DNA from: Acidobacteriota bacterium
GTDB taxonomy: Bacteria > Acidobacteriota > Terriglobia > Acidiferrales > UBA7541
Direction of reading: 5' to 3'
DNA length: 37,258 bases
NCBI GenBank assembly: GCA_013287135.1
Contig: JABDEK010000036.1
Coordinates: forward strand, 1-37,258
The translations under genes were made by a program, and so were the position numbers. Every line of letters begins with the position of its first letter. Within the stretch, counting starts at the first letter, position 1. Of the stretch, positions 20,488 through 36,787 are shown piece by piece. A model generated the notes under the pieces. The model saw only the letters and a list, made by a program, of their open reading frames with translations, ran no database searches and was not told where the DNA came from.

Positions 20488-20537
20488 TGGTCGGGGCGTG
20501 GAGATTTGAACTCCAGACCTCCCACTCCCAAGTTCAG
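20488..20537 (-). repeat. tRNA-Pro 3' fragment A (attachment-site remnant)
   Basis: Reading on the minus strand, it carries the anticodon-loop core CTTGGGA, the T arm (TGGAG TTCAAAT CTCCA), the acceptor strand CGCCCCG, A and CCA of the intact tRNA-Pro at 36711. The first 35 bases from the CCA end (20488-20522) are identical to the intact gene. The anticodon stem is then altered and the 5' half is absent. Confidence 0.85.
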
Positions 20538-20552
20538 GCGTATCATCCCTGG

Positions 20553-20676
20553 GAAGTCCTTCCTTTTCAATCTTTGTTTTGAAAACAAATGAGTTAGAAA
20601 AATATTTGGTAGCGGCAGGACGAGACGAAATGTGGCTCCGCACGCATGGAGTCCCCTGAATTTTCACCAGAGCGAA
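20553..20676. repeat. 124-base island-end repeat, copy 1
   Basis: It matches 34773-34896 over exactly 124 bases without gaps, about 85% identical by eye. Both copies lie just right of a tRNA-Pro fragment and contain GAAGTCCTTCCTTTTCAA at the left and a GTCCCCTGAATTTT-like motif near the right end. It is probably the conserved end sequence of a related family of integrating elements. Confidence 0.85.
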
Positions 20677-21052
20677 GAAGATGCGAAGTGACTCGCAAGT
20701 CCAAATCCATTCTCGAATCCCAGCCCGTTTGCGTCGGCAACGCCGACTGCAAGCAGAGCCGTCCGCAATCTGCGGAAAAGCACTGCGGGCCGAAATTCGT
20801 GCTCATCACAGAAATGCAGGACCGCCACAATTCCGATTCCGGAGTCCCCTGGCGTCACAGAGGGCTGGGTATTCTCTACATCCCGAGATCACGACCTGCG
20901 TGCTCCATCGAACTTTTCACGGCACCGAAAATTTGGAAATCGCATTCGCAATGCCATAAATCAGCTCTCTCGCATGACAACATCGGCCTATCGCGCGTGG
21001 GAAGCGTGGCGTTCCGCTGAGCGGTGATAAAGGAGTTCGCCGTAGATTGCGC

Positions 21053-21823
21053 TCATCGTCCCAAAACCCTCTTGCGGATGTCGGGCCAAAACTCCTTCGC
21101 TACATTGAAGAACGCGTCCAGGGCGATCTGTTGTCCCCACTTATCTGCTGTATTTCCAAACGACCGATTGGCCGCCGGATAATAGGCGTTGGAAATGCCC
21201 GCCGCCACCGCATTGCCCGCGAGCTCCGACGTGTTGAAGTGGTTGCGGCCATCATCGCCACGGGTTATGAACTCGCGGCTCAAGGCGTATCCGGTTCGCC
21301 TCCAAAACCCGCCGTTTCCTCTCACGAAATAGCGGGGGTCCTGATGGAGCGCGGCCGGAAACAGTCCCTCGCTCATAATGTTACCGATGGCTTGATCGGC
21401 GAATGCCCCTCCATAATATTTTCCGAACCCTTGTGCGCCTTGACCGAAGGAAGCGTATTGACGCTGCGCCATCCCTAACCCGGCAAATACACCTGCCACC
21501 AGAAAAGCCGAGGGATCAAAAGAATCGTCGAATGCAACTTTCATCTTTGCGCTTCGAGTCAACGGAAGGATTGTTGTCGTATTCTCGTCCGAGCGGTAGT
21601 TGGGTATCACCCAGAAAATGTGATTCTTGCTCGGTTCGTGTTGCGGTCCATTCTGCTCAGGATTTGACTGAGGAGTTTGGGATTGAGCCGGCTGAGGTGC
21701 ATCCGGCAGAGGTGACATTTCTTGACCCTGCGCAGAAATTGATCCAACAAGAAAACCAAGGCCGACCAACAGATGGCAAGTCGCTTTCAGGAAGGAACGT
21801 AACACTAGGCTATGCACTATCAA
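21053..21823 (-). CDS. Exported protein of unknown function, acidobacterial type
   Basis: A 256-residue protein with a signal peptide ending near SISAQGQE, then a Pro/Gln-rich stretch (PLPDAPQPAQSQTPQSNPEQ) and a globular part beginning at FWVIPNYRS. That part continues with small-residue-rich and aromatic segments: FDPSAFLVAGVFAGLGMAQ, GKYYGGAFADQAIGNIMSEGLFPAALHQDPRYF and WGQQIALDAFFNVAKEFWPDI. Proteins with PNYR and ALHQDPRYF blocks are frequent in Acidobacteria but uncharacterised. Location in the periplasm or outer membrane is likely. It is the first gene of module 1 and is divergent from the beta-barrel pseudogene. Confidence 0.75.
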   Translation of the reverse strand: MIVHSLVLRSFLKATCHLLVGLGFLVGSISAQGQEMSPLPDAPQPAQSQTPQSNPEQNGPQHEPSKNHIFWVIPNYRSDENTTTILPLTRSAKMKVAFDDSFDPSAFLVAGVFAGLGMAQRQYASFGQGAQGFGKYYGGAFADQAIGNIMSEGLFPAALHQDPRYFVRGNGGFWRRTGYALSREFITRGDDGRNHFNTSELAGNAVAAGISNAYYPAANRSFGNTADKWGQQIALDAFFNVAKEFWPDIRKRVLGR

Positions 21824-22089
21824 TCTGATGCATGGTCAGCCCCAGTCACAATTCAGATGAACAAGTTGTCATCTCTAGGATGTCTCAGCGTCATTCTCAA
21901 CTGCTAATGTTCCATCGAAGCTTCCGAACGAATCGTTAGAGGATCTAATCGGTCAATGAGATATCAACGTCGCGTGGCAGTGGTCTCGGACGGGAGAACA
22001 GGCCGGGTTTCATTTTCCTTTACTTCACCATGGCCTAAAATCGCGGCCTCTTCGAGCCGCCCGCTCGAAGTTGTAGGTACTCCGGAAGT

Positions 22090-22669
22090 GTGGCGATCTT
22101 GAGCGGTGCGCTTCGTGTTTTGTTCCGGTGCGGTCCAGGACGCGGCTGCTTTCTCGTGTTGGCACTTCTGACTGTCGTTTTGTCTGCAACTTCTACGCGC
22201 GCTCAAGACAACTATGAAATCCAAGTTTACGGATCGGAATTGGTGGACCCCGGCCACACCAGGGTCGGGCTGCACAGTAATTTCACGATTGATGGCTCAA
22301 AAACGATTATCAATGGTGTTTATCTGAACGTGGACCAAAAGGTCGGTGGATGGTATTGGTCCCTGAACCCAACGCTGGACCGCTCCTTCCATGGAGAGAG
22401 CGTCAACCAAGGGGTCGTCTTCTCACCCAATTTCAAATTCAGCTACGACTTCAGTCCCAAGATCGCCGCGGGCCTCGAGTATTACGGGTCGGTCGGCCCG
22501 GTCACGGGATTCGACGCCGTCGCACAGCAGCAGCACCAGATTTTCCCCGCGATTTGATTTGAATATCGCGCCGCAGTGGGAAATCAATTTCGGCTTGGGC
22601 GTGGGTCTCACGAAGGCCACAGATCACCTCATTGCGAAAATGATCCTTGGGTATCGACTTAATTTCTAA
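22090..22669 (+). pseudogene. Outer-membrane beta-barrel-like protein, frameshifted
   Basis: An exported protein with signal peptide (RGCFLVLALLTVVLSATSTRAQ) and alternating strand-like segments (NYEIQVYGSELV, TRVGLHSNFTID, GGWYWSLNPTLDRSF, FSPNFKFSYDFSPKIAAGLEYYGSVG). The frame ends at 22557 with QIFPAI and a stop, but the next frame continues with DLNIAPQWEINFGLGVGLTK and GYRLNF up to 22669. Deleting one T in the run at 22553-22555 restores the full protein. Compared with homologues as I remember them, a stretch of perhaps 80 residues also seems missing after INGVYLN; that is from memory and unverified. The cytochrome gene follows after 20 bases. Confidence 0.75.
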
Positions 22670-22689
22670 TCCAGGAAAGGAAACGAGCA

Positions 22690-23256
22690 ATGGTGAAGGG
22701 ACTCGTGATCGGTTTTTTGCTGGCGGTAGTGATTTTGGCCGGTGCGGTTTTCGGCTATTTGGCCTCGGGTATGGTGCCTGTTGCTACTGCCGACCCACCA
22801 ATGCCATTTGAGAAAAAACTTGCCAACATGGCTCTGAACGCGCATATCGAGAAGCAACACGTTGTGCAATCTCCTGTTGCTGCCGACGAACCCGCTTTCC
22901 TTGCTGGTGCGGGAGTGTACAAAGAGCACTGCGCGGTCTGTCACGGAGTGCCAGGCCAGCCCCCCACCGACTACTCCGCGACGATGTTTCCGATGCCGCC
23001 TCAACTCTTTCGAGGGCATGGTGTGACCGATGACCCAGCGTTCGAGAGTTATTGGAAGGCGGCTAATGGTATCCGGCTGTCCGGGATGCCCGCGTTCAAG
23101 ACGAAGCTAACGGACACGCAATTGTGGCAGGTCAGTCAATTAGTCGCGCACGCGAACGATTTGCCCGAATCCGTGAAGAAAGCGCTTGCCCCTGACGTTC
23201 CGCCATCAGCAACTCCACAGACTCCGACGGCGACCGGTGAATCGAGCAAGAAGTAA
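22690..23256 (+). CDS. Membrane-anchored monohaem c-type cytochrome
   Basis: An electron carrier of 188 residues with an N-terminal transmembrane anchor (residues 4-27, GLVIGFLLAVVILAGAVFGYLA) and a periplasmic cytochrome c domain. The haem motif CAVCH is at residues 81-85, and the probable distal ligand is Met133 in LSGMPAF, followed by the typical TDTQLWQVSQLVAHANDLP helix. The tail is rich in Pro, Thr and Ser. AGGAAAGGAAA precedes the ATG at 22690. It lies 20 bases after the broken beta-barrel gene, so the two were probably one transcript. Its redox partner is unknown. Confidence 0.9.
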   Translation: MVKGLVIGFLLAVVILAGAVFGYLASGMVPVATADPPMPFEKKLANMALNAHIEKQHVVQSPVAADEPAFLAGAGVYKEHCAVCHGVPGQPPTDYSATMFPMPPQLFRGHGVTDDPAFESYWKAANGIRLSGMPAFKTKLTDTQLWQVSQLVAHANDLPESVKKALAPDVPPSATPQTPTATGESSKK

Positions 23257-23494
23257 TCAACCATAGGAAAAAACAAGGAGACCGTGAGAATTTACTGTAT
23301 AGCCCCGACAACGGGGTCACGCGGAATTTTATGCCGCATCTTTGGATGTTTCTCCTGCAGTCATTGACTTCGTGAAGAGCTTGCGTCGGCGAATGTTGTG
23401 CAAGCGAGGTTCAAACAGGTGGTTTTGGGTAGGACGGTTTGGATGGGCGATGGCGACCTTCCTCACACAATCTGAGCACACATGCTTCCCGCTC

Positions 23495-24028
23495 TTACTT
23501 CTTGGCGGTCGGCGGCAACACACCGTTCAGACGCAGATACATTGCGGTTTCGGCGTAGTGGTCGGCCCAAGCACCGGCCAGGACCAGGCTGATCCAGGCT
23601 CGCGTAACTTGTTTTCCGCCGAATCCTTCCGTGGTTTCCTCTAGTTTCGAATCGTCCATTTTCGCCAGCGCGTCGGAGCAGAAATCGAATGAGGCCTTGA
23701 GCGCTACGATGAGCTTGTCTTTCGAGTCTGTGTCTTTTACTTCCTCGACCTTGGGAGCAGCGACGGCGGCCGCCTTGCCGCACAGCAGATTATTCGTTTC
23801 GGCCATGTGGACAACGAGACGGCCGAAGGTCATCTGGTCGGAGCTGGGCTTGTAACTGAATTTTTCGGCGGGCATGGCTTCGACGGCTGCGACGGTGTTT
23901 TTCTGCCGGCCGGCCAGAATGTCTCTCAGGGCGGTACTTACCGGGTTCTTTGATTGCGCGCACGTTGTTTGTGCAATCGCTGACGCGGCGAGGAACAGCA
24001 AGGCATGGATCACGAAAGTTCTCTTCAT
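23495..24028 (-). CDS. Exported DinB-superfamily protein
   Basis: A 177-residue protein with a clear signal peptide (MKRTFVIHALLFLAASAIAQTTCAQ) and a DinB/YfiT-like four-helix domain. Metal-binding His residues are likely in RLVVHMAETNNLL and in WADHYAETAMYLRLNG, matching two of the three positions of the DinB triad. Exported DinB proteins are abundant in Acidobacteria, and their substrates are not known. DinB enzymes are often thiol-dependent transferases, but that role in the periplasm is untested. The gene sits alone on the minus strand between the cytochrome and the ADOP permease. Confidence 0.85.
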   Translation of the reverse strand: MKRTFVIHALLFLAASAIAQTTCAQSKNPVSTALRDILAGRQKNTVAAVEAMPAEKFSYKPSSDQMTFGRLVVHMAETNNLLCGKAAAVAAPKVEEVKDTDSKDKLIVALKASFDFCSDALAKMDDSKLEETTEGFGGKQVTRAWISLVLAGAWADHYAETAMYLRLNGVLPPTAKK

Positions 24029-24207
24029 TTTGTCCTCATTTCAGTTTGGATTTCAGCTTGCATTTTGGCATTGTATGTCAGATTTGGGGGTATATAGCCT
24101 TCGGCAAGACGCAGTCCGTACCGCAAATCCTGCAATACCGTGGTCATCGCCCCCCCCTTGAGTGGCTAATGTTGAATCGCAATATTCAGAGTCCGAAGCC
24201 TATGTCC

Positions 24208-26916
24208 TCAACTCTCGCGCAGGGCAATCATTGGGTCCACCTTGGTCGCGCGCCGGGCTGGAAGGTAGCTGGCTAGAACGGCAACGGCAAACAAAAGCAG
24301 AGGCACGATCAGAAACACAGCCGGATCATGCGGGCGCACGCCGTAAAGCAAACTGCCCAGCAACGACGCAGTGGATGCAGAAACGACCATGCCAGCCACA
24401 ATTCCGAGGCCCGCCAGCACTATACCCTTTTGCAAGAACAGCTTCAGGACGCCGCCTCGCCCGGCCCCCAAGGCCATGCGAATACCGATCTCGCGCGATC
24501 TTTGGCTGACCATGTAGGCCAGCAAGCCATAAATTCCGATGGAGGCCAGAAGCACCGCCAGTCCGGCGAATCCGCCCACCAGGTCGGCAGAAAAACGGCG
24601 TGAAGCCAGTGACCGATCAAGGATGTCATTCATAGAGACAACATTGAACACGGGTAAGCCGGGATCAATGCTCTGGATTTCATGCCGAATCTGTGGTTCG
24701 AGCAGGGTCGCGGGCAGAGACGTCCGCAACACCACGCTCACTTGCTTGCTGGGGTCTTGATAGACCGAAACGTAGATGTGGGGAACGCCATCGATGTCGA
24801 GACCGTCATTCTTGATATCCTTAATAATACCCGCGACGGTCGTCCATGGCTCCATAGGGTCTTGACCGAACCGCATTCGGCGGCCCAGCGGATCGCGGGT
24901 TGGCCAATACTTACGAGCCGTGCTTTCATCAATGATGGCCACCGGCTGTTTGCCGTCTTCATCGCCCTCGGTGAATGAGCGGCCGCGTAGGAGCGTCGCC
25001 TGCAACACCTTAAAATAATCGGGGCTTATCCGAATTCTCTCGGCGCGCAGATCCTGCGAGGACTCGACCGGTCTATCTTCAATCGCGAAGCCTTCGATCT
25101 CTAAGCCACCGACCGCGTTGGGGTTGCTATTGGTGGTCGGTAGAGATGAGGTGATTGCGGCGAGTTCTACTCCCGGAATTGCCTTCATGCGCCGCAGCAA
25201 CTCACGATCAAAGGTGGCCTTACCAGGAATACCGAGATACGGATCCGTCTTCGGATCGTTGGGAACTCCTAGCCACGTGTTTGCCGTGACAACTTGAGTT
25301 GGATTAAAGCCTGGATTTTCCTGCAACAGATCCCGCAGCGTACGCAGCAGCAAGCCGGCTCCCACCATCAGTATGACGGCAAATGCCAGTTCAGAGACGA
25401 TTAGGACATCCCGCAATCGGCCGGTCTTAGTGCTGTAGCCGGACCCGCGACCGCCTTCACGAATGGCCGAGGAGAGAGCGCCTTTTGCCGAAAGAAGCGC
25501 TGGAGCAAGTCCAAACACTAAGCCGGCAAGAATGGAAATCAGCAGAGCGAAGGCCAGCACCACCCAGTCGATTCGTACTTCGCTGAGCCGGGGAACGTTC
25601 GATGGCACAAAGCGCAGAATGAATCCTAAAGTACCAACCGCGGTTGCGATTCCCGCGGCACCGCCGATGAGCGACAGCAGCATGGACTCGGTCAGCATCT
25701 GGCGCACCATCCGGCCGCGGCTCGCCCCCAGCGCTAACCGCACCGCCATCTCTTGTTGTCGCCCCGAAGCGCGCGCCAAGAGGAGATTGGCAATGTTCAA
25801 CGATACGATGAAAACGATCAGGATTACCGCACCCAGTAACACCAGCAGCATGGGCCGAACATTGCCTACCAAAGTTTCTTGCAATGGTTGAATCTCAATT
25901 GTCCATTGCGCCTGCGGCGGATAATCGGTGGGAAAGTCGTGGCGTAATTGGGCAGCCATGGCAGTGAGCCGCGCCTGAGCTTGCTTCAGTGTCAGGCCAG
26001 GCTTAAGTCGTCCGATTCCAGATACTAAATCCCGGTTACCACGTATTGGCGGGGGAAAGGGATCTGCGCTGAATCCGCAGGCGCCAAAGACTTCCACGTC
26101 GCCGGAAGTCGTCGGTCCAGGATGGCGAAATCCGCGTGGCAGAACCCCAATAATTGTAGCGGGATCACCGTCGAGCCGGATGGTACGGCCGAGAACATTC
26201 GGATCGGCGCCATAGGCACGGCGCCACAGGCCATCGCTGATCACGGCCAGGGGAGCGAAACCGGGCGCGAAGTCCTGCGGACCAAACAACCGTCCGATTT
26301 GCGGGGTCACGCCCAGCATGGAAAAGTAGCTAAAACTGCCATTGACCGCCTCGAGACGCTCGGGCTGTTTGGCGCCGGTCAAATTCTCGGTACCCTCAAA
26401 GATCGGGGTCACATCTTCAAATACACCCGCTCGCGTCTGCAGGTCATCCAGTTCGGGCTTGGAAAAGCTAACGTCCCGCAATCCTACGCCGGGCTCGTTA
26501 AAGAAGATTCGTACCAAACGATCCGGATCGCTATAGGGCAGAGAATGCAACAACACCGCATTCACGATGCTGAAAATTGCCGTGTTGGCTCCCACGCCGA
26601 GAGCCAGAGTCAAAATCGCAACCGCGGTGAAACCTGGATTCTTGCGCAACAATCTCAATCCATGACGCATGTCCGAACCTAGTTCACCCCACCAGCGCAC
26701 GCCCACAGATGCCCGCACGGCATCTTTGTGAGACTCGATTCCGCCGAACTCAATCCTCGCCTGTCGCATCGCTTCTTGCTGGGAAAGGCCTTTGCGAACC
26801 AGGTCCGCTGCGCGGCTCTCAATGTGGAAACGCACTTCCGTTTCCATTTCACTTTCAAGCCGCTGTCCCTTGACCATCCACTTCCACCAAGAAAGGAATC
26901 GAGTCAGAAGATTCAT
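24208..26916 (-). CDS. ADOP-type (acidobacterial duplicated orphan permease) MacB/FtsX permease
   Basis: A large inner-membrane permease of the MacB/FtsX class, without an attached ATPase, of the type called ADOP. ATG 26916 is chosen because it overlaps the PadR stop (ATGA); a longer reading from 26973 is less likely. The N-terminal prefix domain (ESEMETEVRFHIESRAADLV...ARIEFGG) leads to RHGLRLLRKNPGFTAVAILTLALGVGANTAIFSIVNAVLL with TM1. Next come a large periplasmic domain (about 130-350), an FtsX block with helices near 375-490, then a second copy of the same layout (TM near 515, periplasmic domain, FtsX block about 775-895). Some relatives export lipids, peptides or drugs, but the substrate here is unknown. 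No ATPase gene is nearby. Confidence 0.92.
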   Translation of the reverse strand: MNLLTRFLSWWKWMVKGQRLESEMETEVRFHIESRAADLVRKGLSQQEAMRQARIEFGGIESHKDAVRASVGVRWWGELGSDMRHGLRLLRKNPGFTAVAILTLALGVGANTAIFSIVNAVLLHSLPYSDPDRLVRIFFNEPGVGLRDVSFSKPELDDLQTRAGVFEDVTPIFEGTENLTGAKQPERLEAVNGSFSYFSMLGVTPQIGRLFGPQDFAPGFAPLAVISDGLWRRAYGADPNVLGRTIRLDGDPATIIGVLPRGFRHPGPTTSGDVEVFGACGFSADPFPPPIRGNRDLVSGIGRLKPGLTLKQAQARLTAMAAQLRHDFPTDYPPQAQWTIEIQPLQETLVGNVRPMLLVLLGAVILIVFIVSLNIANLLLARASGRQQEMAVRLALGASRGRMVRQMLTESMLLSLIGGAAGIATAVGTLGFILRFVPSNVPRLSEVRIDWVVLAFALLISILAGLVFGLAPALLSAKGALSSAIREGGRGSGYSTKTGRLRDVLIVSELAFAVILMVGAGLLLRTLRDLLQENPGFNPTQVVTANTWLGVPNDPKTDPYLGIPGKATFDRELLRRMKAIPGVELAAITSSLPTTNSNPNAVGGLEIEGFAIEDRPVESSQDLRAERIRISPDYFKVLQATLLRGRSFTEGDEDGKQPVAIIDESTARKYWPTRDPLGRRMRFGQDPMEPWTTVAGIIKDIKNDGLDIDGVPHIYVSVYQDPSKQVSVVLRTSLPATLLEPQIRHEIQSIDPGLPVFNVVSMNDILDRSLASRRFSADLVGGFAGLAVLLASIGIYGLLAYMVSQRSREIGIRMALGAGRGGVLKLFLQKGIVLAGLGIVAGMVVSASTASLLGSLLYGVRPHDPAVFLIVPLLLFAVAVLASYLPARRATKVDPMIALRES

Positions 26917-27254
26917 ATCTGCTCCGAGGTGGTGCGCAGGATACTGGCGATCAACGATGCCATGCGGTTCCACTTTTCGGTTTCCGAATGGAGCTGGCGC
27001 CGCCCGGCTGCAGTCAGGCTGTAGAACTTCGCCTTGCGTTTGTTATCCGATTCCCCCCACTCGCTGGCGATCCAACCCTGATGTTCCAGCCGATAGAGCG
27101 CCGGATATAACGAGCCTTGCTGGATCTCCAGTTGTTCGCCAGAGATCTGCTGAATGCGCAGCAAAACCCCGTAGCCGTGCAGCGGGCCAAGCGAGACAGC
27201 TTTGAGGATCAGCATGTCCAGCGTGCCCTGCAGCAAATCAATTTGTTTGCCCAC
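26913..27254 (-). CDS. PadR-family transcriptional repressor
   Basis: A 113-residue winged-helix regulator if begun at GTG 27254, which has GGAGAGG just upstream and matches the usual family N-terminus (MGKQIDLLQGTLDMLILKAVS). An ATG at 27296 would add 14 unusual residues and would place the start inside the operator. The domain reads LGPLHGYGVLLRIQQISG, LEIQQGSLYPALYRLEHQGWI, KRKAKFYSLTAAGRRQL and a C-terminal dimerisation helix. The stop overlaps the ADOP start (ATGA), the usual coupling of these two genes in Acidobacteria. It probably represses its own operon through the inverted repeat at 27272-27300. Confidence 0.93.
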   Translation of the reverse strand: MGKQIDLLQGTLDMLILKAVSLGPLHGYGVLLRIQQISGEQLEIQQGSLYPALYRLEHQGWIASEWGESDNKRKAKFYSLTAAGRRQLHSETEKWNRMASLIASILRTTSEQI

Positions 27255-27271
27255 GACCTCTCCTTGTTTGT

Positions 27272-27300
27272 CTAGGAGAGGTTTAACAAAACTCACCTAG
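27272..27300. promoter_or_regulatory. Candidate PadR operator (inverted repeat)
   Basis: CTAGGAGAG (27272-27280) and CTCACCTAG (27292-27300) are inverted copies matching at 8 of 9 positions, with an 11-base spacer. A second, overlapping inverted pair, CCTCTCCT with AGGAGAGG, spans about 27257-27281, and an AAGGAGAG lies further upstream. The cluster sits just upstream of padR, where the promoter must be. Confidence 0.6.
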
Positions 27301-27339
27301 ATAGTCAAGGAGAGAGTATTTTTGCGAAAAGATTCCCCC

Positions 27340-27434
27340 GATCCGGAGGGTACGGCCGAGAACATTCGGATCGGCGCCATAGGCACGGCGCCACAGGTCA
27401 TCGCTGATCACGGCCTCTGGAGCGAAACCCGGCG
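27340..27434 (-). pseudogene. Fragment of an ADOP permease gene
   Basis: About 95 bases nearly identical to the interior of the ADOP gene (about 26174-26268), in the same orientation, with only a few differences. It begins about 85 bases upstream of the padR start and ends next to unrelated DNA. It is a leftover from a second ADOP copy or a recombination scar. No function is expected. Confidence 0.85.
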
Positions 27435-27460: not shown

Positions 27461-27486
27461 TGACTGTAGTGAAAATTGTAGTGACC
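27461..27486. repeat. 26-base repeat with two TCACTACA units, copy 1 (inverted)
   Basis: On the minus strand this reads GGTCACTACAA, three bases, TCACTACAGT and matches 34639-34664 at 21 of 26 positions in opposite orientation. Each copy lies 45-100 bases left of a tRNA-Pro fragment. It may be an arm-type integrase site or a trace of a lost integrase gene end. Confidence 0.6.
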
Positions 27487-27587: not shown

Positions 27588-27638
27588 TGGTCGGGGCGTG
27601 GAGATTCGAACTCCAGACCTCCTGCGCCCAAGGCAGGC
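27588..27638 (-). repeat. tRNA-Pro 3' fragment B (attachment-site remnant)
   Basis: It matches the intact tRNA-Pro from its CCA end through the T arm, variable loop and whole anticodon arm (GCCTGCCTTGGGCGCAGG), with one difference in the T loop. The D arm and 5' acceptor strand are absent. It marks the junction between modules 1 and 2. Confidence 0.88.
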
Positions 27639-27754
27639 TCCTTACTTCCGGTAAGCAATTCATTTTCAATCACTCAATAGAAAAATTGCGACTTAGCTCC
27701 AGATTGAGAATTGCGTAGGCAGCCTGGCCCGATTGTTGGATCGGCCTCTTAGCG

Positions 27755-29625: not shown

Positions 29626-29631
29626 AGCCCG

Positions 29632-29871
29632 GTGGTGATGGCGTTTCGCAAGAAGATGGCCAGCGGGGAAGTCCAGCAACGATACCGTCGTCGTGGACCA
29701 ATCGTGGAGTTTTGTCACGCGTGGATCAAGAGCAAGCTGGGACTGCGGCAGTTCCATGTGCGGGGTCTGAAGAAAGTGCACATGGAAATGTTGTGGGCTT
29801 GCCTGACCTACAACCTGCAGTTTTGGATCCGTCTCACAAAGCTAAGCACAACACCATCCGTTACCTGAGAG
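29632..29871 (+). mobile_element. IS transposase C-terminal remnant (DDE family, IS1182-like)
   Basis: The 78-residue frame contains KKMASGEVQQRYRRRGPIVE, then FCHAWIKSKLGLRQFHVRGL and KVHMEMLWACLTYNLQFWIRL. This is the typical C-terminus of DDE transposases of the IS1182/IS5-like type, including the catalytic Glu region (VEFCHAWIK). The N-terminal two thirds are missing and I see no terminal inverted repeats. It starts 7 bases after the integrase scrap, so a deletion may have joined the two remnants. Confidence 0.82.
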
Positions 29872-30035
29872 AGTAAGAGAACATCGGTGAGGATCGAGAC
29901 ACTCGCCAGTAACAAGTCCCAAATTAAATAAACTCACGCCCAATCTTCAATTGTTTGAGGTTTTTTCACAGCTTCCAGGGCTGGACTCTACTTGGTCCGG
30001 TTTGGGCGTTAGACTTAGCAGGTTCTCTCTCTTCG

Positions 30036-30064
30036 TTGACTTGCCTTTAGACGCAGCCTAAGAT
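30036..30064 (+). promoter_or_regulatory. Candidate sigma-70 promoter for the kinase-TPR gene
   Basis: TTGACT (30036-30041), a 17-base spacer and TAAGAT (30059-30064) form a good sigma-70 promoter. It lies 28 bases before the ATG at 30092, with GAGGAAG as ribosome binding site between them. No other promoter of this quality is visible upstream. Confidence 0.6.
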
Positions 30065-30091
30065 TTCCGCGCAGAGGAAGTTCCCTCCCAA

Positions 30092-32290
30092 ATGATCGGC
30101 AAGATACTTGGCCATTACCGCATCGTCGAGAAGATCGGCGCTGGTGGCATGGGCGAAGTGTACCGTGCACGCGATGAGCAGCTCGACCGTGATGTAGCGC
30201 TAAAAGTCCTGCCGGCCGGCACGCTCGGCGACGACGCTGCTCGAAAACAGTTCCGCAAAGAAGCTCTGGCTCTCGCAAAACTGAACTATCCCAACATTGA
30301 AACCATTTTCGAATTCGGTTCGCAGGATGGCGTGGATTTTCTGGCCATGGAGCTGATTCCCGGGCAGCCGCTTGGCGAAAAACTGAAAGACGGGCCGCTC
30401 GAGCAGCAGGAAATCGTCCGGCTCGCGACGCAGCTCGCGGACGGATTGACGGCGGCGCACGAGCAGAGCGTCATCCATCGCGATCTGAAGCCTGCCAATC
30501 TTTTCGTCACACCGGACGGGCGTCTGAAGATCCTCGATTTCGGCTTGGCGAGGCTGGTGCATCCGGAACTTGCCGGAGATGTGACGCGAAGCATCACGAT
30601 GGAAACAGGGACGGTGTCGGGCACCGTGCCTTACATGCCGCCGGAACAGTTGCGCGGATTGCCGGCCGATGCACGCAGCGATATCTATGCAGCCGGCGCG
30701 GTGCTGTATGAGATGGCCACGGGGCAAAGGCCGTTCCCGCAAAAGCAGAGCGCGGAATTAATGGGCGCAATTCTGCATCAGGCGCCGCCGGCACCAAGTT
30801 CGGTGAACCCGCATGTCTCGCCCGGGCTTGAATCCGTAATCGGCAAGATGCTCGAAAAAGATCCGGGGCAACGCTATCAATCGGCGCGCGAATTGCGGAT
30901 CGCCCTAGAGACCATTTCGAACGCCGGCGTGGCGTCCGGCCGGGTAGCAGCAACTTCCGTTGCGACTCAAGAATCCGGTCGCGCGCCGATCACTGTAGTG
31001 GAACGACCCAGAAGACGCTGGAGGATCGCAGCGCCGCTCATGCTCTTTGCCGTCGCGGCGGCCGCTTTCGCTGGGTGGCTCTTCTATGCGCGACACGCGC
31101 ACGCATTGGGCGCGGCCGACACGGTGGTGCTGGCGGATTTTTCGAACTCGACGGGTGACCCTGTATTCGATGACACGCTGAAACAGGCGCTCTCGGTGCA
31201 ACTCGCGCAGTCGCCATTTCTGAACGTCCTGGCGGATCGCAAGGTGAACTCGACGCTGAAACTGATGGACAAGAAGCCCGGCGAGCCTCTTACCGGCGAA
31301 ACGGCGCGGGAATTGTGCGTGCGCTCGGGCAGTAAAGCGGTGCTGCAGGGCTCGATCGCCAGCCTGGGAAGCGAGTATGTAATCGGGTTGAAGGCGGTGA
31401 ACTGTACCAGCGGCGATGTGCTGGCCCAGGAACTCGTGCAGGCCGCGAGCAAGGAACAGGTTTTGAAGGCGATGGGCGGGGCCACAACAAAATTTCGGCA
31501 GACTCTCGGCGAGTCGCTGAGCACGGTGCAGAAATACGACACGCCACTCAACCAGGCCACCACCCCTTCGTTGGACGCTCTGAAAGCCTTCACACAAGGG
31601 AAGACAATTCGCAATACGAAAGGCGATGCCGAATCGATTCCGTTTTTCAAGCATGCCATCGAACTCGATCCCAACTTCGCGATGGCCTACACGGCGCTGG
31701 GCGTCTCGTACTCCAACCTCGACGAACACGGCGCCGCGAGCGAATATCTGAGCAAGGCCTACGAATTGCGCGGCCGCGTGAGCGAGCGCGAACAATTTGC
31801 CATCGGTGGCCTGTACCACGATTACGTTACCGGGGACAGGCAGAAGGCCAACGACACTTATGCGTTGTGGGAGCAGACCTATCCGCGAGAGCTATCGCCA
31901 CACGTCAACATCGGCGTGAACTACAGCTTGATGGGGCAGCAGCAGAAATTTTTGGCCGAGGGCCTGGAATGCCTGCGCCTGGATCCTGCATTCAGCGGTT
32001 GTTACGCCAATCTCATGAACAATTATATTTTTATGTATCGGCTGCAGGATGCCAAGGCCACTTACGATCAGGCAGTCGCCCGCAAGATAGATGTGCCGTT
32101 CCTGCATGAGCTCAGATTCAAGCTCGCTTTCCTCGAAGACGACAACGCAGAAATACAGCGACAGATCGCCTGGGCCGCCGACAAACCGGGCGAGCAGGAA
32201 TATTTTCTGAACCAACAGGCAGTTCCACGGCGAACTACAGAACGCGCGTGCATTGATCCAACGCGCAGTGGAACTCGCCCGGCAGGGTGA
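30092..32290 (+). CDS. Ser/Thr protein kinase with TPR sensor region, 5' part of a frameshifted gene
   Basis: A eukaryote-like (PknB-type) kinase. The catalytic domain (residues 1-275) is complete: glycine loop GAGGMGEVY, Lys38 in VALKVL, Glu57, HRDLKPANL with Asp131, DFGLA with Asp149, and the PPEQLRG activation-segment end. A transmembrane helix (about 313-332, IAAPLMLFAVAAAAFAGWLFYA) separates it from an extracytoplasmic part with a FlgO-like or TolB-like region (VVLADFSNSTGDPVFDDTL) and tetratricopeptide repeats from about residue 510. Near 32218-32222 the frame shifts: after EYFLNQQ it runs into a nonsense tail ending at 32290, while the TPRs continue in the next frame. One extra or two missing bases explain this. 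The kinase itself should still be made. Confidence 0.9.
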   Translation: MIGKILGHYRIVEKIGAGGMGEVYRARDEQLDRDVALKVLPAGTLGDDAARKQFRKEALALAKLNYPNIETIFEFGSQDGVDFLAMELIPGQPLGEKLKDGPLEQQEIVRLATQLADGLTAAHEQSVIHRDLKPANLFVTPDGRLKILDFGLARLVHPELAGDVTRSITMETGTVSGTVPYMPPEQLRGLPADARSDIYAAGAVLYEMATGQRPFPQKQSAELMGAILHQAPPAPSSVNPHVSPGLESVIGKMLEKDPGQRYQSARELRIALETISNAGVASGRVAATSVATQESGRAPITVVERPRRRWRIAAPLMLFAVAAAAFAGWLFYARHAHALGAADTVVLADFSNSTGDPVFDDTLKQALSVQLAQSPFLNVLADRKVNSTLKLMDKKPGEPLTGETARELCVRSGSKAVLQGSIASLGSEYVIGLKAVNCTSGDVLAQELVQAASKEQVLKAMGGATTKFRQTLGESLSTVQKYDTPLNQATTPSLDALKAFTQGKTIRNTKGDAESIPFFKHAIELDPNFAMAYTALGVSYSNLDEHGAASEYLSKAYELRGRVSEREQFAIGGLYHDYVTGDRQKANDTYALWEQTYPRELSPHVNIGVNYSLMGQQQKFLAEGLECLRLDPAFSGCYANLMNNYIFMYRLQDAKATYDQAVARKIDVPFLHELRFKLAFLEDDNAEIQRQIAWAADKPGEQEYFLNQQAVPRRTTERACIDPTRSGTRPAG

Positions 32291-32912
32291 CCTGAAGCAA
32301 GACGCAGCGGACTACGAAGTTGGGCTGGCGTGGTCAGAAGCCGAGCTTGGGAACTTTGAGGTGGCTCGACAGCAGGTTGCCACTGCTCTCACCATGTCCA
32401 CAGACCGTGATCTCCAGGTGCAGGCAGCTGTGGTTCTGGCTCGGGCCGGAGACGAGACGCAGGCCCAAAAGATTGCCGACGACCTGGCCAAGAGATTCCC
32501 GTCCGATACTCTGGTCAATTTTATTTGGCTGCCCACCATTCGCGCGGCCATCGAAATTGGCCGCAAAAATCCTGCGAAAGCGGTTGAGTATCTTCAGACC
32601 GCGCTCCCATACGATCTGAGCTTTCTCGTCGAGCTTTATCCTGCCTATCTGCGCGGAGTCGCATATCTAAAGTTGCAACGCGGGAGCGAACCCGCCGCCG
32701 AGTTTCAAAAGCTTTTCGACCATCGCGGGCTGGTGGGGTATCAGCAGCAAGGTGCGCTGGCGCATTTGGGGATTGCGCGAGCGTACGTGCTGCAAGGCGA
32801 CAAAGCTAAAGCGCGGGCCGCCTACAATGACTTCTTCGCGCTTTGGAAAAACGCCGACCCCGACATACCTATCCTAATCGCAGCAAAGTATGAATACGCA
32901 AAGCTTCAATAA
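32253..32912 (+). CDS. TPR region, 3' part of the frameshifted kinase gene
   Basis: This frame continues the tetratricopeptide repeats of the kinase gene after the shift at about 32220. In-frame sequence FHGELQNARALIQRAVELAR begins at about 32222, before the nominal TTG at 32253. It encodes further TPR pairs: ALIQRAVELARQGDLKQDAA, VGLAWSEAELGNFEVARQQV, AVVLARAGDETQAQKIADDL and AHLGIARAYVLQGDKAKARA. There is no ribosome binding site or signal at its start, so it is unlikely to be an independent gene. If the shift is real, the sensor part of the kinase is cut short. Confidence 0.85.
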   Translation: MIQRAVELARQGDLKQDAADYEVGLAWSEAELGNFEVARQQVATALTMSTDRDLQVQAAVVLARAGDETQAQKIADDLAKRFPSDTLVNFIWLPTIRAAIEIGRKNPAKAVEYLQTALPYDLSFLVELYPAYLRGVAYLKLQRGSEPAAEFQKLFDHRGLVGYQQQGALAHLGIARAYVLQGDKAKARAAYNDFFALWKNADPDIPILIAAKYEYAKLQ

Positions 32913-33123
32913 TCACACGCATTTCACGAGTCCATTAGATTGACGGCGATTTGTCCCCGCTAATCCGCCCTAGTGCCATCTGGTAAGTCGTTTACCAGGT
33001 GTTGCGGATAAATCCTGCCTGCAAGAGCGATCCGGACGCTGGAATGCTTCGAAAGACTTCCATAAGTAGCCCCGATAGGCGGGAGGGTTTATCCTAGTTG
33101 CCGGTTGCGCAGGGAGTCTTTGT

Positions 33124-34429
33124 ATGTCGAGAAAACTCGCGGGCCTCGCGGCCTTTTTTATTCTTAGCCTCCTCGCTCGCGGGGTGGGCCCAAACGGACA
33201 ATGGCGACGCGTTGAAACTGCTCGACGAGGTCGCGAAACACTATGCGGATGCCAACAGCTATCACATCGAGTCCATCCGCGAATCGCGGATCTCCTCTGA
33301 GCTCCACTCTTCTTGGCAGAAGGAGATGCTGAGGGCTGAGCAGGCACCGGGAAACCGTTACCGCTTCGAAGGGCGATCCGCTTCAGGCTCCGGAATCGTG
33401 CTCTCGGACGGCATCACCGAATGGAATCTACACCGCAGCTATGACCAATACACCAAAAGGCCGCCAGGGAACTATGGCCACCCGTTTCCGAAGAGGCCAA
33501 CCGCCCAGGATGAAGAGCCAGAGCAAGAAGCCTTTTTCTTGCAGACGAACCTCGCGACGGCGGGTGATTTCGCCAAGTCAGCGCACTTCCTACCAGAAGA
33601 AACAATCTCGGTAGAAGATCATCGCGTCGCGTGCGTGGTTGTGACCTTTGGCCCGGAGGACCTGCGACAGCCCTTTCCATCTGCTAGTACAAGTCAGACC
33701 TTCTGGATCGACAAGGTGCACCGGATCATCGTAAAGTCGCTGCGCGTAAGCGACGGCAATAGGCTGTTCGACCCGGCGCGCCCGCCCGTACACCCAATTT
33801 CTGTCCACAGCGAAGAATTGACTGTCTATCCCGTGGTGAAGCTGAACGAGCCCATTCCAGATATCGATTTTGCCTTTACTCCACCCGAAAATGCTTCCGT
33901 TGTGGAGGAGTTTCCCTCGCCTTATGGCGTCAGTACGGCGGCTGACTCCGACTCCGCAACGGTCCTGCCCAAGCAGCCCGACATGATCGGCAAGATGGAG
34001 CCAGCACTTACGTTGCATGCGGCGGACAACAGCTCGTTGCAACTGGGCGGTCTGCGCGGACATCCTGTATTGATCGACCTTTGGGCGACATGGTGCGCTC
34101 CATGCTTGGAGGAGATGCCGCTGATCGATCACATATTTCGGAAGACACGAGACACGGGACTCGTCGTGCTGGGATTGGATTACGACCGGGACCCGAAGAC
34201 CGCCGCGGACTTCCTGAAACGAAAGAACTACGGCTGGGCAGACTACCATGACGACTTGAAGCGACCTGAATTCCCCCACAATGGAATTCCACTGATTGTG
34301 CTGATCGATGCGGAGGGGAAGATCGTTTACTACAACAATGGGGCATACGACGATCCTGGTCTGGTGTCGGCGGTCAGGAGACTAGGTCCGGCTTTTGCCA
34401 CAGCGCTGGGTAATGATTTCAAGCAATAG
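33124..34429 (+). CDS. Exported TlpA-like thioredoxin-fold protein, frameshift in signal peptide
   Basis: A protein of about 435 residues with a long N-terminal domain (ALKLLDEVAKHYADANSYHI onward, resembling outer-membrane lipoprotein-carrier or DUF2092-like folds) and a C-terminal thioredoxin domain. The redox motif is WATWCAPC in LIDLWATWCAPCLEEMPLID, and the cis-proline is in NGIPLIVLIDAEGKI. ATG 33124 with GGAG upstream begins a proper signal peptide (MSRKLAGLAAFF), but the main frame is reached only if one T is removed from the six at 33154-33159; it then continues as LFLASSLAGWAQTDN. Without that, translation would need a poor start near 33098. The likely role is thiol-disulfide exchange or resistance in the periplasm. 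Confidence 0.82.
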
Positions 34430-34638
34430 CGGGGACCAAGAATTCTCCAGCTCGTGGATCGCACTACTCAGTCGTGTCAGCCACGCGCTAAGTCCCGATA
34501 AGTCCGGGTTCTAGGACTCCACTGATTTGCGCGTTGATCAGGACTTACTAAGCCCGCGGAGCCGACATGCAGAGCGCCGCTAAAATGGGATGCTCAAAGA
34601 TTGTAGTGCTGATAAGGACTGGCGGACGGAAGTCAGCA

Positions 34639-34664
34639 GGTCACTACAAAAGTCACTACAGTGG
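34639..34664. repeat. 26-base repeat with two TCACTACA units, copy 2
   Basis: It reads GGTCACTACAA, three bases, TCACTACAGT on the plus strand and matches the complement of 27461-27486 at 21 of 26 positions. It lies 45 bases left of tRNA-Pro fragment C. Confidence 0.6.
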
Positions 34665-34708
34665 AGCGAGTGCAATGACGGACGCCGCCGCTAAGTTATT
34701 GAGGGGAT

Positions 34709-34752
34709 TGGTCGGGGCGTGGAGATTCGAATTCCAGACCTCCTGCGCCCAA
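34709..34752 (-). repeat. tRNA-Pro 3' fragment C (attachment-site remnant)
   Basis: It matches the tRNA-Pro 3' half from CCA through the T arm (two differences) to the anticodon loop CTTGGGC; the match then weakens (AGCCAGCC instead of AGGCAGGC). The 5' half is absent. It marks the junction between modules 2 and 3. Confidence 0.85.
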
Positions 34753-34772
34753 GCCAGCCGGGCTACCTTTTA

Positions 34773-34896
34773 GAAGTCCTTCCTTTTCAACCTTAGTTTT
34801 GAAAATAAACGAATTAGAAAAATATTTGGTAGTGGCACGATGTACGGAAATGTGGCTGCGCATGCATCGAGTCCCCCGAATTTTCCCCATAGCGAA
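34773..34896. repeat. 124-base island-end repeat, copy 2
   Basis: A gap-free partner of 20553-20676, about 85% identical by eye, also placed just right of a tRNA-Pro fragment. It includes GAAGTCCTTCC at the left and GTCCCCCGAATTTTCCCC near the right end. Confidence 0.85.
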
Positions 34897-34982
34897 CAAA
34901 GAGCGAAAGCAACAACGCTCGTGTCAAAACATCGAATCTGCCTGCACTATTAATTCTGTCCCCATTGGGGTAGAATAAGTGA

Positions 34983-35597
34983 ATGAACACTACAGAATAT
35001 ACTCCGGCGCAGGCTTCGGCTGTTGCGAATCTGTCGCTTCCCGCCGTTCATAAGCTCATCGAACGTCGGCTCATTCGGCCGCGACGACTCCGCACTGGCC
35101 GCTCCGTCCAACGGATGCTCAGTCGCGAGCAAGTGTTGTATCTCCGCCTCGAAGCGGAGGGTGTGAGACTCCTGCCGCTCGCCGCTCGCCGAGCAATCGC
35201 CAAGGAAATTGAAGAGTCTCCCGAAGTTGACGCTGTATTTCTTACGGAGGGTTCAGCAGTGGTAATTCAAGTGAAGTCAGTGCGGCTAGAACTCGACTTG
35301 GACCTAAAGAAACTTGAGCGTGCCGAGGAAATGATTATTTCCGACGCTGAGACCATGCGCGGTGTGCCTGTTTATCGTGGCACACGCATTCCAGTCGAAC
35401 TTATTGCCGATATGTTGAGCCAAGGAGCGACCCTGAACGAAATCCTAGAGGGATACCCAGCTCTGGATCGCGAGAAGGTCGAGCTCGCTCCGCTTTACGT
35501 CCAAGCTTTTCCGCGCCGCGGCCGTCCGGTTTCTCGCCCCTGGAAAAAACGAAAGCCGATTCGTGCAACGCGGCATCGTCAAGCCCATGCGGAGTGA
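34983..35597 (+). CDS. DUF433 antitoxin with MerR-like N-terminal domain
   Basis: A 204-residue probable antitoxin. The N-terminal part (YTPAQASAVANLSLPAVHKLIERRLIRP) looks like a helix-turn-helix of the MerR/excisionase type for DNA binding. The C-terminal part is a DUF433 domain: AETMRGVPVYRGTRIPVELIADMLSQ, then GATLNEILEGYPALDREKVE. DUF433 proteins are typically paired with DUF5615 PIN-like toxins, and the next gene is exactly that, starting within the antitoxin stop (GTGA). ATG 34983 follows directly after repeat DNA. Binding to its own promoter is expected from the family. Confidence 0.9.
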   Translation: MNTTEYTPAQASAVANLSLPAVHKLIERRLIRPRRLRTGRSVQRMLSREQVLYLRLEAEGVRLLPLAARRAIAKEIEESPEVDAVFLTEGSAVVIQVKSVRLELDLDLKKLERAEEMIISDAETMRGVPVYRGTRIPVELIADMLSQGATLNEILEGYPALDREKVELAPLYVQAFPRRGRPVSRPWKKRKPIRATRHRQAHAE

Positions 35598-36004
35598 CAG
35601 TGAAGCTTTTGATCGATGAATGCCTACACACATCCTTGGTTGAATTAGCGCATGCGGCGGGTCACGTGGCGGATCATGTTAATTATCTCGGTCTCGGCAG
35701 TTCGAAAGACTGGCAACTCATGGCGACAATCCGCGCACAGGACTACACGTTTGTAACGAACAACCGCTCCGACTTTCTTGTTTTACATGGGCAGGAAGCG
35801 CTGCACGCGGGAGTCATCATTATTGTTCCCAATGTCACGCCCGTTCGTCAGCGAGAACTCTTCACTGCGGCGCTCAAACATATCGGCACGCGGGATTTGA
35901 CGAATACTGGTCGATGCATTGCCGCCGCATCTGTTCGAAGCATTGATCGCATGCTTGCTGGAAAACCAAGGGCACCGAACCGTTTTGACGGTGCGATCAA
36001 ATGA
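35594..36004 (+). CDS. DUF5615 PIN-like toxin, C-terminus altered
   Basis: A small PIN-fold (Mut7-C/VapC-like) protein, the probable RNase toxin of the pair. It shows KLLIDECLHTSLVELAHAAGH with the first acidic residues, then YLGLGSSKDWQLMATIRAQDYTFVTNNRSDF and HAGVIIIVPNV. GTG 35594 overlaps the antitoxin stop; a second GTG at 35600 would give VKLLIDE and is equally possible. The family part ends near RDLTNT (about 35909). The last 30 residues (GRCIAAASVRSIDRM and on) are an out-of-frame reading of the Mrr-like gene that overlaps here. The native C-terminus therefore seems to have been replaced at a junction, and activity may be affected. Confidence 0.88.
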   Translation: MTVKLLIDECLHTSLVELAHAAGHVADHVNYLGLGSSKDWQLMATIRAQDYTFVTNNRSDFLVLHGQEALHAGVIIIVPNVTPVRQRELFTAALKHIGTRDLTNTGRCIAAASVRSIDRMLAGKPRAPNRFDGAIK

Positions 36005-36366
36005 CCACGGCGCTGATGTTCTCTCATTCCACGATGGAGAAGTATGGATAGTCCAGGTAAAGCACACTTCCCGGGACATAGTGGTCGGAAGCATCGCGAT
36101 GTCGGATCTTATGGCTGCACGAATGAGCTATTCCACTCCGCTATCGTATTCCGTTCGCCTGATGGCAGTTACAAACGGGAATTTTTCCAATGAAACGCAA
36201 AAAGGAAGCTTCGCAGCACGGAATTCAGCTTCTGGATCGGCGCGAGCTAATGTCGAAGCTCAAGGCTAGTTTTCTTACTATGGGGCGCGTCTACACGCGC
36301 GAAGTTGACCGCTGCAAGTCCTTCGATGAAGGAATTAAAGCTGCAAAGCGTTGGTTTCAGGCCTAA
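35919..36366 (+). pseudogene. Mrr-type restriction endonuclease domain, truncated and frameshifted
   Basis: A nuclease domain of the Mrr_cat (type IV restriction) family. From about 35919 the frame reads LPPHLFEALIACLLENQGHR, then SNDHGADVLSFHDGEVWIVQVKHT, which includes the D...QxK catalytic core. The match continues to LMAVTNGNFSNETQ, where the frame runs off into a tail ending at 36269. Dropping one A from the five at 36199-36203 brings back EASQHGIQLLDRRELMSKL and continues to TAA 36364-36366. No proper start is visible: the only candidate is TTG 35919, inside the toxin gene, so the N-terminus is probably lost. The domain may once have been part of a defence gene. Confidence 0.75.
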
Positions 36367-36383
36367 GAAGCGCCGAAGAACTG

Positions 36384-36641
36384 ATGTTCATATGCACTCC
36401 TATGAAAGGCGGCGAGAAGTGGGATATCAAGCTCACGATAGCGATGATCGTTGACAACCGCTCGTCTCCTACGTCGCAGACGCTGCCATGCATGCACTCA
36501 TTTGAGGGAACGGTCCGCCGATGCCCACTGAACTATCTCGGAGTGAAGCTAGAGAACTATCGAGCCGTGAAGATGCAGGAAGCAGTAGTGAAAATGCAGG
36601 AAGAACAGCAAGAAGCAGAAAAGCTGGGGATGTTGCAGTAG
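36384..36641 (+). CDS. Small hypothetical protein, doubtful
   Basis: An 85-residue frame from ATG 36384 (an in-frame TTG at 36351 is also open). The C-terminal 30 residues form a charged, Glu/Lys/Gln-rich helix (VKMQEAVVKMQEEQQEAEKL), and the N-terminal part has no recognised domain. It lies between the Mrr remnant and the island-end repeat. It could be a true small gene of module 3 or a chance frame, and no function can be given. Confidence 0.35.
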   Translation: MFICTPMKGGEKWDIKLTIAMIVDNRSSPTSQTLPCMHSFEGTVRRCPLNYLGVKLENYRAVKMQEAVVKMQEEQQEAEKLGMLQ

Positions 36642-36642
36642 G

Positions 36643-36667
36643 GTCCCCTGAATTTCCCCCATAGTGA
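36643..36667. repeat. Island-end motif, third copy
   Basis: GTCCCCTGAATTTCCCCC followed by ATAGTGA resembles the right part of the 124-base repeats (20651 and 34871). Here it lies left of the intact tRNA-Pro. It is followed by GGAAGGACTT, the inverted form of the AAGTCCTTCC found in the other copies, so the two ends of the element may carry inverted copies of this short motif. Confidence 0.6.
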
Positions 36668-36710
36668 GGGGAAGGACTTTTTAGAGATGCCTGTAACTCG
36701 CAGAAAAGAT

Positions 36711-36787
36711 TGGTCGGGGCGTGGAGATTTGAACTCCAGACCTCCTGCGCCCAAGGCAGGCGCGCTACCAGGCTGCGCTACGCCCCG
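36711..36787 (-). tRNA. tRNA-Pro (anticodon TGG)
   Basis: A complete 77-base tRNA on the minus strand with encoded CCA. The acceptor stem CGGGGCG pairs with CGCCCCG, discriminator A. The D arm contains AGCGCAGCCTGGTAGCGC. The anticodon arm is CCTGC-CTTGGGC-GCAGG, giving anticodon TGG, which reads proline CCA and, with modification, other CCN codons. The T arm is TGGAG-TTCAAAT-CTCCA. Three partial copies of its 3' half lie to the left, showing that this gene serves as an integration hot spot; the intact copy has been kept at the right end. Confidence 0.97.

Follow-up and report, generated by a model that had tools for sequence, protein, structure and literature searches.

A probable two-sided docking site for mobile elements at an acidobacterial tRNA-Pro(UGG) gene

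tRNA genes are classic landing sites for genomic islands; usually the incoming element restores the 3′ half of the gene and the host promoter stays in charge. Subfamilies of integrases are reported, by Williams 2002, to prefer particular sublocations in tRNA genes, the anticodon loop among them, and Castillo et al. 2018, going by its title, is said to describe recombination of Acidithiobacillus conjugative elements at the anticodon stem-loop. Here a 37,258-nucleotide stretch of an Acidobacteriota genome (assembly GCA_013287135.1, contig JABDEK010000036.1, positions 1 to 37,258; hereafter the window) is analyzed in which a tRNA-Pro(UGG) gene is accompanied by a stack of three elements. Table 1 of the Islander survey lists 3919 islands, 3760 with 3′ tRNA fragments and 159 with 5′ fragments, and the same source counts 125 tandems of two or more islands and four of three or more, each array member having its own integrase (PMC4383910). 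Archaeal pTN3-like elements, as described in PMC8371274, use the 5′ half of a tRNA gene, with a similar case stated to be seldom encountered in bacteria, and section 18 of that source notes that anticodon stem-loops resemble integrase core sites.

The window is most of contig C36 (37642 bases), which has a run of N just outside it, and belongs to a metagenome-assembled genome (G000) of 4.38 Mb in 194 contigs that is 79% complete. Relatives are denoted by G-numbers, contigs by C-numbers and fetched loci by L-numbers. The proline tRNA gene of this soil bacterium is a repeated landing site of conjugative mobile DNA, which in relatives is found on either side of the gene. Very probably the gene acts as a two-sided docking site for integrative conjugative elements (ICEs), with three entries on the 3′ side and an int5-type element end on the 5′ side. 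The tRNA halves, attachment arms, integrase tails and 5′-side end from which this proposal is built, and the fuller versions in relatives, are read directly from the sequences. The gene and its displaced 3′ halves are as follows.

36711–36787, minus strand: intact tRNA-Pro(UGG) (ARAGORN; flank comparison)
20488–20540, minus strand: displaced tRNA-Pro 3′ half no. 1, frag1 (BLAST 91%; most decayed core)
27588–27638, minus strand: displaced tRNA-Pro 3′ half no. 2, frag2 (BLAST 98%)
34709–34767, minus strand: displaced tRNA-Pro 3′ half no. 3, frag3 (BLAST 92%)

ARAGORN found a single tRNA in the window, tRNA-Pro(TGG) at 36711–36787 on the minus strand. The 27-base 3′ end of the gene occurs at 20488, 27588, 34709 and 36711 on one strand with 0, 1, 2 and 0 mismatches, respectively, whereas the chance expectation is 0.00 (no match in 100 dinucleotide shuffles). 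A preliminary description of this DNA had reported the three fragments, oriented like the intact gene, and their spacings of 7100, 7121 and 2002 bases; both the exact positions and the distances are confirmed. It had also given the fragments as comprising the CCA end and the T arm, which is correct as far as it goes, but the boundary lies beyond the T arm: in alignments of the window and the fetched relatives, each 3′ half starts at the CCA end, takes in the T arm and breaks off at the anticodon loop, where other sequence takes over. This loop, GCGCCCAAG on the plus strand and mutated in frag1, is the common boundary. The intact tRNA gene with same-orientation displaced fragments on the proper side that Islander looks for is present, three 3′ halves lying downstream. 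The halves appear to record three insertions, made one after another, at the anticodon loop. The possibility raised earlier that such fragments might occur in all relatives does not hold, as some relatives with the tRNA gene, such as the draft genomes G001, G006 and G019, showed no unpaired 3′ half.

The sequences that abut the halves assign the elements to two families, with the family-A attachment arm (armA) to the right of frag1 and frag3 and the family-B arm (armB) to the right of frag2.

20546–20690, unstranded: family-A attachment arm of element 1 (arm comparison, relatives)
27640–27683, unstranded: family-B attachment arm of element 2 (86% over 44 nt to the arm beside a G004 3′ half)
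34619–34675, plus strand: intB scrap, C-terminal 19 amino acids (tblastn 84%, E 2e-4 versus G004 intB)
34629–34708, unstranded: right end of element 2, family B (84–85% to intB ends of G004 and G017)
34773–34907, unstranded: family-A attachment arm of element 3 (84% to 20553–20687; recurs beside 3′ halves in relatives)
36543–36638, plus strand: intA scrap, C-terminal 32 amino acids (tblastn 81%, E 5e-11 versus G064 intA)
36631–36710, unstranded: right end of element 3, family A (97.5% over 80 nt to the G064 intA end; 87.5% to contig C85 of G000)

The ends pair by type, A with A in element 3 and B with B in element 2, and the left end of element 1 is of family A. The 36543–36638 scrap matches the C85 intA more weakly (58%, E 0.025 by tblastn). 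A single integrase scrap had been claimed, but there are two C-terminal tails, of 32 amino acids for family A and 19 for family B, each beside an attachment site. No integrase was recognized in element 1 in a tblastn search of the window. The integrase open reading frame in or overlapping each island that Islander requires is lacking, only tails being present in elements 2 and 3, and no conjugation genes were recognized in element 1, 2 or 3, which do not show the combination of type IV secretion genes and integrase that denotes an ICE. Overall, the three elements appear to retain their ends and cargo and at most an integrase tail. The near equality of the 7100- and 7121-base spacings, earlier singled out as curious, looks like coincidence: element 1 has a family-A arm and element 2 has family-B ends, and no meaning in the spacings was found. 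One integration followed by internal duplications is ruled out by the family-B ends of element 2 versus the family-A ends of element 3. An inverted 24-nt pair (27463–27486 and 34639–34662) at the right ends of elements 1 and 2 has two GTCACTACA-like units in each copy, which are possible arm-type sites.

Fuller versions of family A exist elsewhere. Of the 89 family genomes, 12 have armA beside a tRNA-Pro 3′ half, at 15 or more places in all, two of which are in this window (matches spanning query positions 1–5 to at least 150 were counted), and armA with decayed 3′ halves is present at contig C147 of G000 and in G072. The element ends, sought in independent genomes as an addition to the published tests, thus recur there at the same tRNA. 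Serial site-specific integration at the 3′ side, as previously proposed, is supported by these recurring arms and by the correctly placed integrase tails, but that account is incomplete with respect to the 5′ side. Nor is the site solely the fossil that it had been taken for. Contig C85 of the same assembly carries a family-A element whose intact 361-amino acid tyrosine integrase is 68 bp from an intact tRNA-Pro(TGG), along with VirB4-, VirB6-, VirB8-, CagX/VirB9-, TrbI/VirB10-, VirB11- and VirD4-like proteins, and so combines type IV secretion genes with an integrase as expected of an ICE; the contig stops short of the distal end of the element. Relatives of intA (E up to 1e-60) occur in 6 of the 89 family genomes, four at 76–100% and two at 41% identity. 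A convergent tRNA-Pro adjoins three of the four closer relatives, and the G014 locus as fetched is without a tRNA.

The 5′ side of the gene looks occupied too, by an int5-type end.

36788–36860, unstranded: int5-type element end, the upstream/promoter region of the tRNA gene (cut off by an insertion-sequence-like end at ~36861)

Among 19 flanks compared, the 59 nt at 36802–36860 are 90% identical to int5 element ends, with E values of 7e-20 for G085 and 9e-19 for G064. No match at E up to 1 was obtained in G019, which is of the same genus and has an unoccupied 5′ side, or in G023, G029 and G033. No remnant of an int5 gene was found in the window, in which only the near end of the element supplying the 5′ half is present. 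Apparently, the 3′ half of the window tRNA gene was contributed by a family-A element, and the 5′ half with the upstream region by one of int5 type. The insertion-sequence-like end (GAGTGAACCCCTA...) spans 36861–36982, and its counterpart in G004 (L052 near 10033) begins equally far from the tRNA; similar sequence also occurs on C165, C38 and C149 of G000.

Displaced 5′ halves lie upstream of the tRNA gene in G004, G021 and G030, and one occurs with an int5 arm on contig C143 of G000. A single arm family, arm5, abuts these halves. Complete tRNA-Pro 5′ halves adjoin arm5 in at least 9 of the 89 genomes (G000, G004, G021, G030, G064, G069, G085, G100 and G108), a classification made on the best 22 arm loci and in which the G108 arm is mostly masked. 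A 5′ half in G054 (L063) was dropped as evidence because the contig ends there.

In several relatives the host flanks are nth upstream of the tRNA gene and a gene denoted D downstream, which allows occupied and free sides to be told apart. The order in G021 is D, intact tRNA, 8 kb, 5′ half and nth, with D 136 bp from the tRNA, the 3′ side free and the 5′ side occupied. In G085 it is nth, displaced 5′ half, 93 kb, int5, intact tRNA and D, with type IV secretion genes beside int5. A histidine kinase gene adjoins the tRNA 5′ end directly in G019, in which the 5′ side is free. Both sides are occupied in G030, with remnants of int5 and of a 480-amino acid integrase, intC. A distal 5′ half together with an integrase at the tRNA 5′ end, the arrangement expected if an element supplies the 5′ half, is found on one contig in G085 and across contigs in G064. 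Two side observations concern these loci. A different integrase is located at tRNA-Arg(ACG) just past nth in G021 (L054:17056–18399), giving two integration sites within 2 kb, and gene D in G004 (L126:4537–6538) is inverted beside arm5 with a partial tRNA-Pro 5′ half, which suggests inversions there too.

Both sides are also occupied on contig C58 of G064, in which the order is virB6-virB8-traG-virB11-rep-intA, tRNA-Pro, int5-rep-virB11-traG-virB8-virB6, the left virB11 being in two pieces. The rep genes are 79% identical and the integrases just 23% identical. One tRNA-Pro is here flanked by a pair of sister elements in mirror orientation. The displaced halves of G064, the 3′ half on C88 and the 5′ half on C104, are identical to the halves of the intact gene. 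At 4 of 58 int5 loci with room for one, the far end of the tRNA has a further integrase, facing the opposite way, no more than 400 bp off. Tandem TGTGCACGAAC-like repeats near both int5-element ends (G064 L112:9896–9918; arm5 of several loci) are possible arm-type integrase sites.

The polarity with which int5 integrases use tRNA genes was surveyed in the best 80 loci from a search of genome contigs, to which some genomes contribute several; going by the record titles, the hosts are apparently all acidobacterial. Among these 80, 42 adjoin a co-directional tRNA (5′ half), 23 a convergent tRNA (3′ half) and 15 no tRNA, 12 of the last having room and three ending too early. The 5′ and 3′ counts by isotype are 27 versus 7 for Pro(TGG), 4 versus 5 for Ala(TGC) and 5 versus 4 for Val(CAC), plus others. 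A tree was built from 40 of the 80 loci, 24 of the 5′ type and 16 of the 3′ type, all of which have a tRNA and 230 or more aligned residues; the remainder are short or tRNA-less. The fewest polarity changes on this tree number 4, compared with a mean of 12.7 and a minimum of 8 in 200 shuffles, and the fewest isotype/anticodon changes number 15. A single 3′-type clade is rejected (approximately unbiased test, p = 0.0004). At L138 and L140, the integrase (88% and 83% identity to the int5 query, respectively) adjoins tRNA-Ala in 3′ polarity and falls in a well-supported clade that includes tRNA-Pro 5′ types; one inner branch of this clade is weakly supported (83/41). The gap between int5 and the tRNA is 65–111 bp in 39 of the 40 loci and 188 bp in one, and is similar for either polarity.

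The distal arms also show both polarities. Of 45 arm5 junctions, including three duplicates, 33 lead into a 5′ half in antisense, 7 into a 3′ half in sense and 5 into neither. The 5′ half is complete to tRNA base 1 at 18 distinct junctions and incomplete at 12, which are ambiguous; 10 of these hold only 15–23 nt around the anticodon stem-loop. On contig C38 of G000 (L240:6148–6261 and 11085–11159), an int5-type arm abuts a tRNA-Ala(TGC) 3′ half and a second arm 4.9 kb away has the core only. A test for matching ends covered 26 of the 65 tRNA-adjacent loci (19 three-prime and 7 five-prime, in 25 genomes). An arm match was obtained in 13 of the 25 genomes, in 10 of which the arm adjoins a complete half, and polarity and isotype agree with those of the int5-adjacent tRNA in 9 of these 10. 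G133 has further halves of both polarities besides the matching one. Among the arm copies retrieved, which come from G000 and five relatives, none showed arm5 joined directly to armA, as would result from an old half-site recombination.

From these patterns we infer in what order the events took place, which enzyme acted at each junction and that int5 integrases can dock in either polarity through a near-symmetric anticodon stem core. On the 3′ side, elements would have entered one by one through recombination at the anticodon loop, in the order element 1 (A), element 2 (B) and element 3 (A) that their positions suggest; preservation is best at the end of element 3, nearest the tRNA, and the core is most decayed in frag1. 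Each element would bring its own tRNA 3′ half, restore the gene and displace the previous half, producing the halves at 20488, 27588 and 34709. On the 5′ side, an int5-type element would supply the 5′ half and the upstream region, such that both tRNA halves look element-supplied. The anticodon stem may present inverted core sites to the int5 integrase, the loop forming the overlap. Since in both polarities the carried half is placed between integrase gene and core, a switch would need only an element attachment site (attP) that captures the other half. The outermost displaced halves are predicted to stay usable, recombination between them removing the double island and restoring the host gene. 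Taken jointly, the results make it likely, with less assurance than docking on two sides itself, that int5 tyrosine integrases treat the anticodon stem-loop as a near-symmetric core and have repeatedly switched both the carried half (4 changes) and the tRNA (15 changes); that sister conjugative elements sandwich one tRNA, supplying both halves and the promoter region; and that host halves come to lie at the outer ends, where core recombination could excise the double island with a complete tRNA and so restore the original gene.

Several observations weigh against this proposal of two-sided docking. The first concerns the left part of the window.

8742–9485, plus strand: nth (endonuclease III-like), host gene upstream of tRNA-Pro in relatives (PF00730; synteny)
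15165–19278, minus strand: EAL/GGDEF regulator, response regulator and PAS histidine kinase, host flank by the tRNA 5′ half in G004
19725–20487, unstranded: unexplained junction (host homology ends at ~19724; gene at 19803–20432 on the minus strand; then inverted frag1)

In G004, the flank upstream of the tRNA is collinear with nth and the three regulatory genes of the window, where the 3′ end of frag1 faces this host flank: the island is inverted relative to the left flank. The earlier expectation that an empty site would join the sequence left of 20488 to the tRNA fails accordingly, since that flank lies upstream of the tRNA in G004 and, as the histidine kinase gene, in G019. The inversion is either a real rearrangement or the product of a chimeric contig, which are indistinguishable here, and assembly error is possible. 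An integrase event as its source was considered and dropped: the 3′ halves on C36 are in direct orientation, and simple integrase action between them would not invert the island. Further, the displaced 5′ half expected for the window tRNA sits on the separate contig C143, which may or may not be linked to C36. The assembly has two complete tRNA-Pro(UGG) genes, at 36711–36787 of the window and on C85 (L046:10212–10288), that are 95% identical; in a genome that is 79% complete, this makes strain mixing possible, the alternative being that a displaced half was rebuilt into a second gene. The right end of element 1 matched no integrase end in the 19-flank comparison, so that its family-A label derives from one arm. 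armA is found without a recognizable 3′ half in G035, G066 and G110, through decay or at other sites. As regards a relaxase in the C85 element, the two candidates examined (378 and 363 amino acids) have no Pfam or NCBIfam match. For int5, the arm search gave no match in 12 of the 25 genomes. G114 (the same as G004) has int5 at tRNA-Ala in 3′ polarity and arm junctions that are tRNA-Pro 5′ halves, and in G117, G123 and G129, which have 3′-type int5, the arm is followed by only 17–20 nt of tRNA in 5′ polarity.

Of the alternatives, that of a chimeric contig is the most serious, possible if somewhat doubtful. It supposes that the host segment at 1–19724 was wrongly joined to the island at ~20 kb, perhaps with the islands of several strains merged, and would account for the orientation of the host flank relative to the tRNA, which is wrong by comparison with G004 and G019; the duplicate tRNA-Pro(UGG) genes and the run of N in C36 beyond the window also favor it. 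Yet the ends of elements 2 and 3 pair by family as those of true neighbors should, and the break between flank and island is ~760 bp from the nearest tRNA half with no repeat found at it. The tRNA halves, at ~50 bp, are moreover short for an assembly repeat. Less probable, and indeed improbable, is one-sided tandem accretion at the tRNA 3′ end with the 5′ similarity being a conserved native promoter. One-sided accretion is enough for the three 3′ halves taken alone, and promoter-like blocks are present upstream in other relatives, G001 and G025 matching the window over 47 and 19 nt, respectively. Against a native promoter, however, stand the 59-nt identity to the int5 ends of G064 and G085 and the absence of that match in G019, G023, G029 and G033, and against accretion from one side the displaced 5′ half with its int5 arm on C143 of G000. 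Scarcely credible is the notion that the fragments are tRNA pseudogenes from local duplication without an integrase, as three same-orientation copies on one contig could suggest: every copy stops at the anticodon loop and runs into an arm common to independent genomes, and integrase tails adjoin frag3 and the intact gene. Docking of mobile elements on both sides of the tRNA gene is the reading retained.

The remaining features are cargo and neighboring genes.

34983–36004, plus strand: element 3 cargo, DUF433 protein and DUF5615 PIN-like protein (Pfam)
35919–36269, plus strand: element 3 cargo, Mrr_cat nuclease domain, a remnant resembling the ZorD C-terminus (PF04471, E 1e-10; PADLOC ZorD, E 2e-13)

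The DUF433 and DUF5615 PIN-like genes presumably form a toxin-antitoxin-like pair, going by precedent. A MacB-like permease gene at the end of element 1 has a partial 96-bp duplicate (26172–26267 and 27339–27434, 93%). A Ser/Thr kinase gene with tetratricopeptide repeats (TPRs) at 30092–32290 is followed by an overlapping TPR frame at 32253–32912, the two resembling one frameshift-split gene; identification of the kinase as PD-T4-6 was rejected, the matches being read as generic kinase similarity. The histidine kinase gene of the left flank contains a 300-nt direct repeat (18447–18746 and 18831–19130, 74%) and has two PAS stretches.

These results bear on how tRNA genes are used by mobile DNA. 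The usual 3′-half rule is broken at 42 of the 65 listed tRNA-adjacent loci of one integrase family, polarity flips over a short evolutionary distance (integrases with 83–88% identity to one of tRNA-Pro 5′ type adjoin tRNA-Ala in 3′ polarity), and the old idea of the anticodon stem-loop as a symmetric recombinase core becomes directly testable. Mobile DNA can apparently replace the sequence upstream of a proline tRNA gene, and a functional tRNA gene may be assembled from two facing mobile elements. Surveys restricted to 3′ fragments, or demanding an integrase for each module, would miss much of this window. Among the titles and abstract openings listed, no account of either-half docking by one integrase family was found, and absence from print is not claimed.

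Set against known systems, the three-element stack is a rare form of a known kind, rare because Islander counts only four tandems of three or more, and docking that is both-sided and at either half is judged to be new in degree. As in the islands described by Islander (PMC4383910), an intact tRNA gene is accompanied by displaced same-orientation fragments, and an anticodon-centered crossover is one of the site classes given there. Unlike those islands as described, the tRNA gene here is occupied from both sides, elements 1 to 3 retain no more of an integrase than a tail, and both halves are used by one integrase family, the 5′ half at 42 and the 3′ half at 23 of the 65 listed tRNA-adjacent loci. 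The anticodon-loop sublocation is shared with integrase subfamilies reported by Williams 2002, and recombination at the anticodon stem-loop with the Acidithiobacillus conjugative elements of Castillo et al. 2018, as its title has it. The pTN3-like elements, as presented in PMC8371274, resemble the int5-type elements in having a 5′-half attachment site and an element-supplied upstream region, a likeness of site geometry only. The int5-type elements differ from that description in being bacterial, in carrying type IV secretion genes, in also using 3′ halves and in having the tRNA ~100 bp after int5 in the same direction. Use of the 5′ half, which that source considers seldom met in bacteria, is here the majority state of one integrase subfamily.

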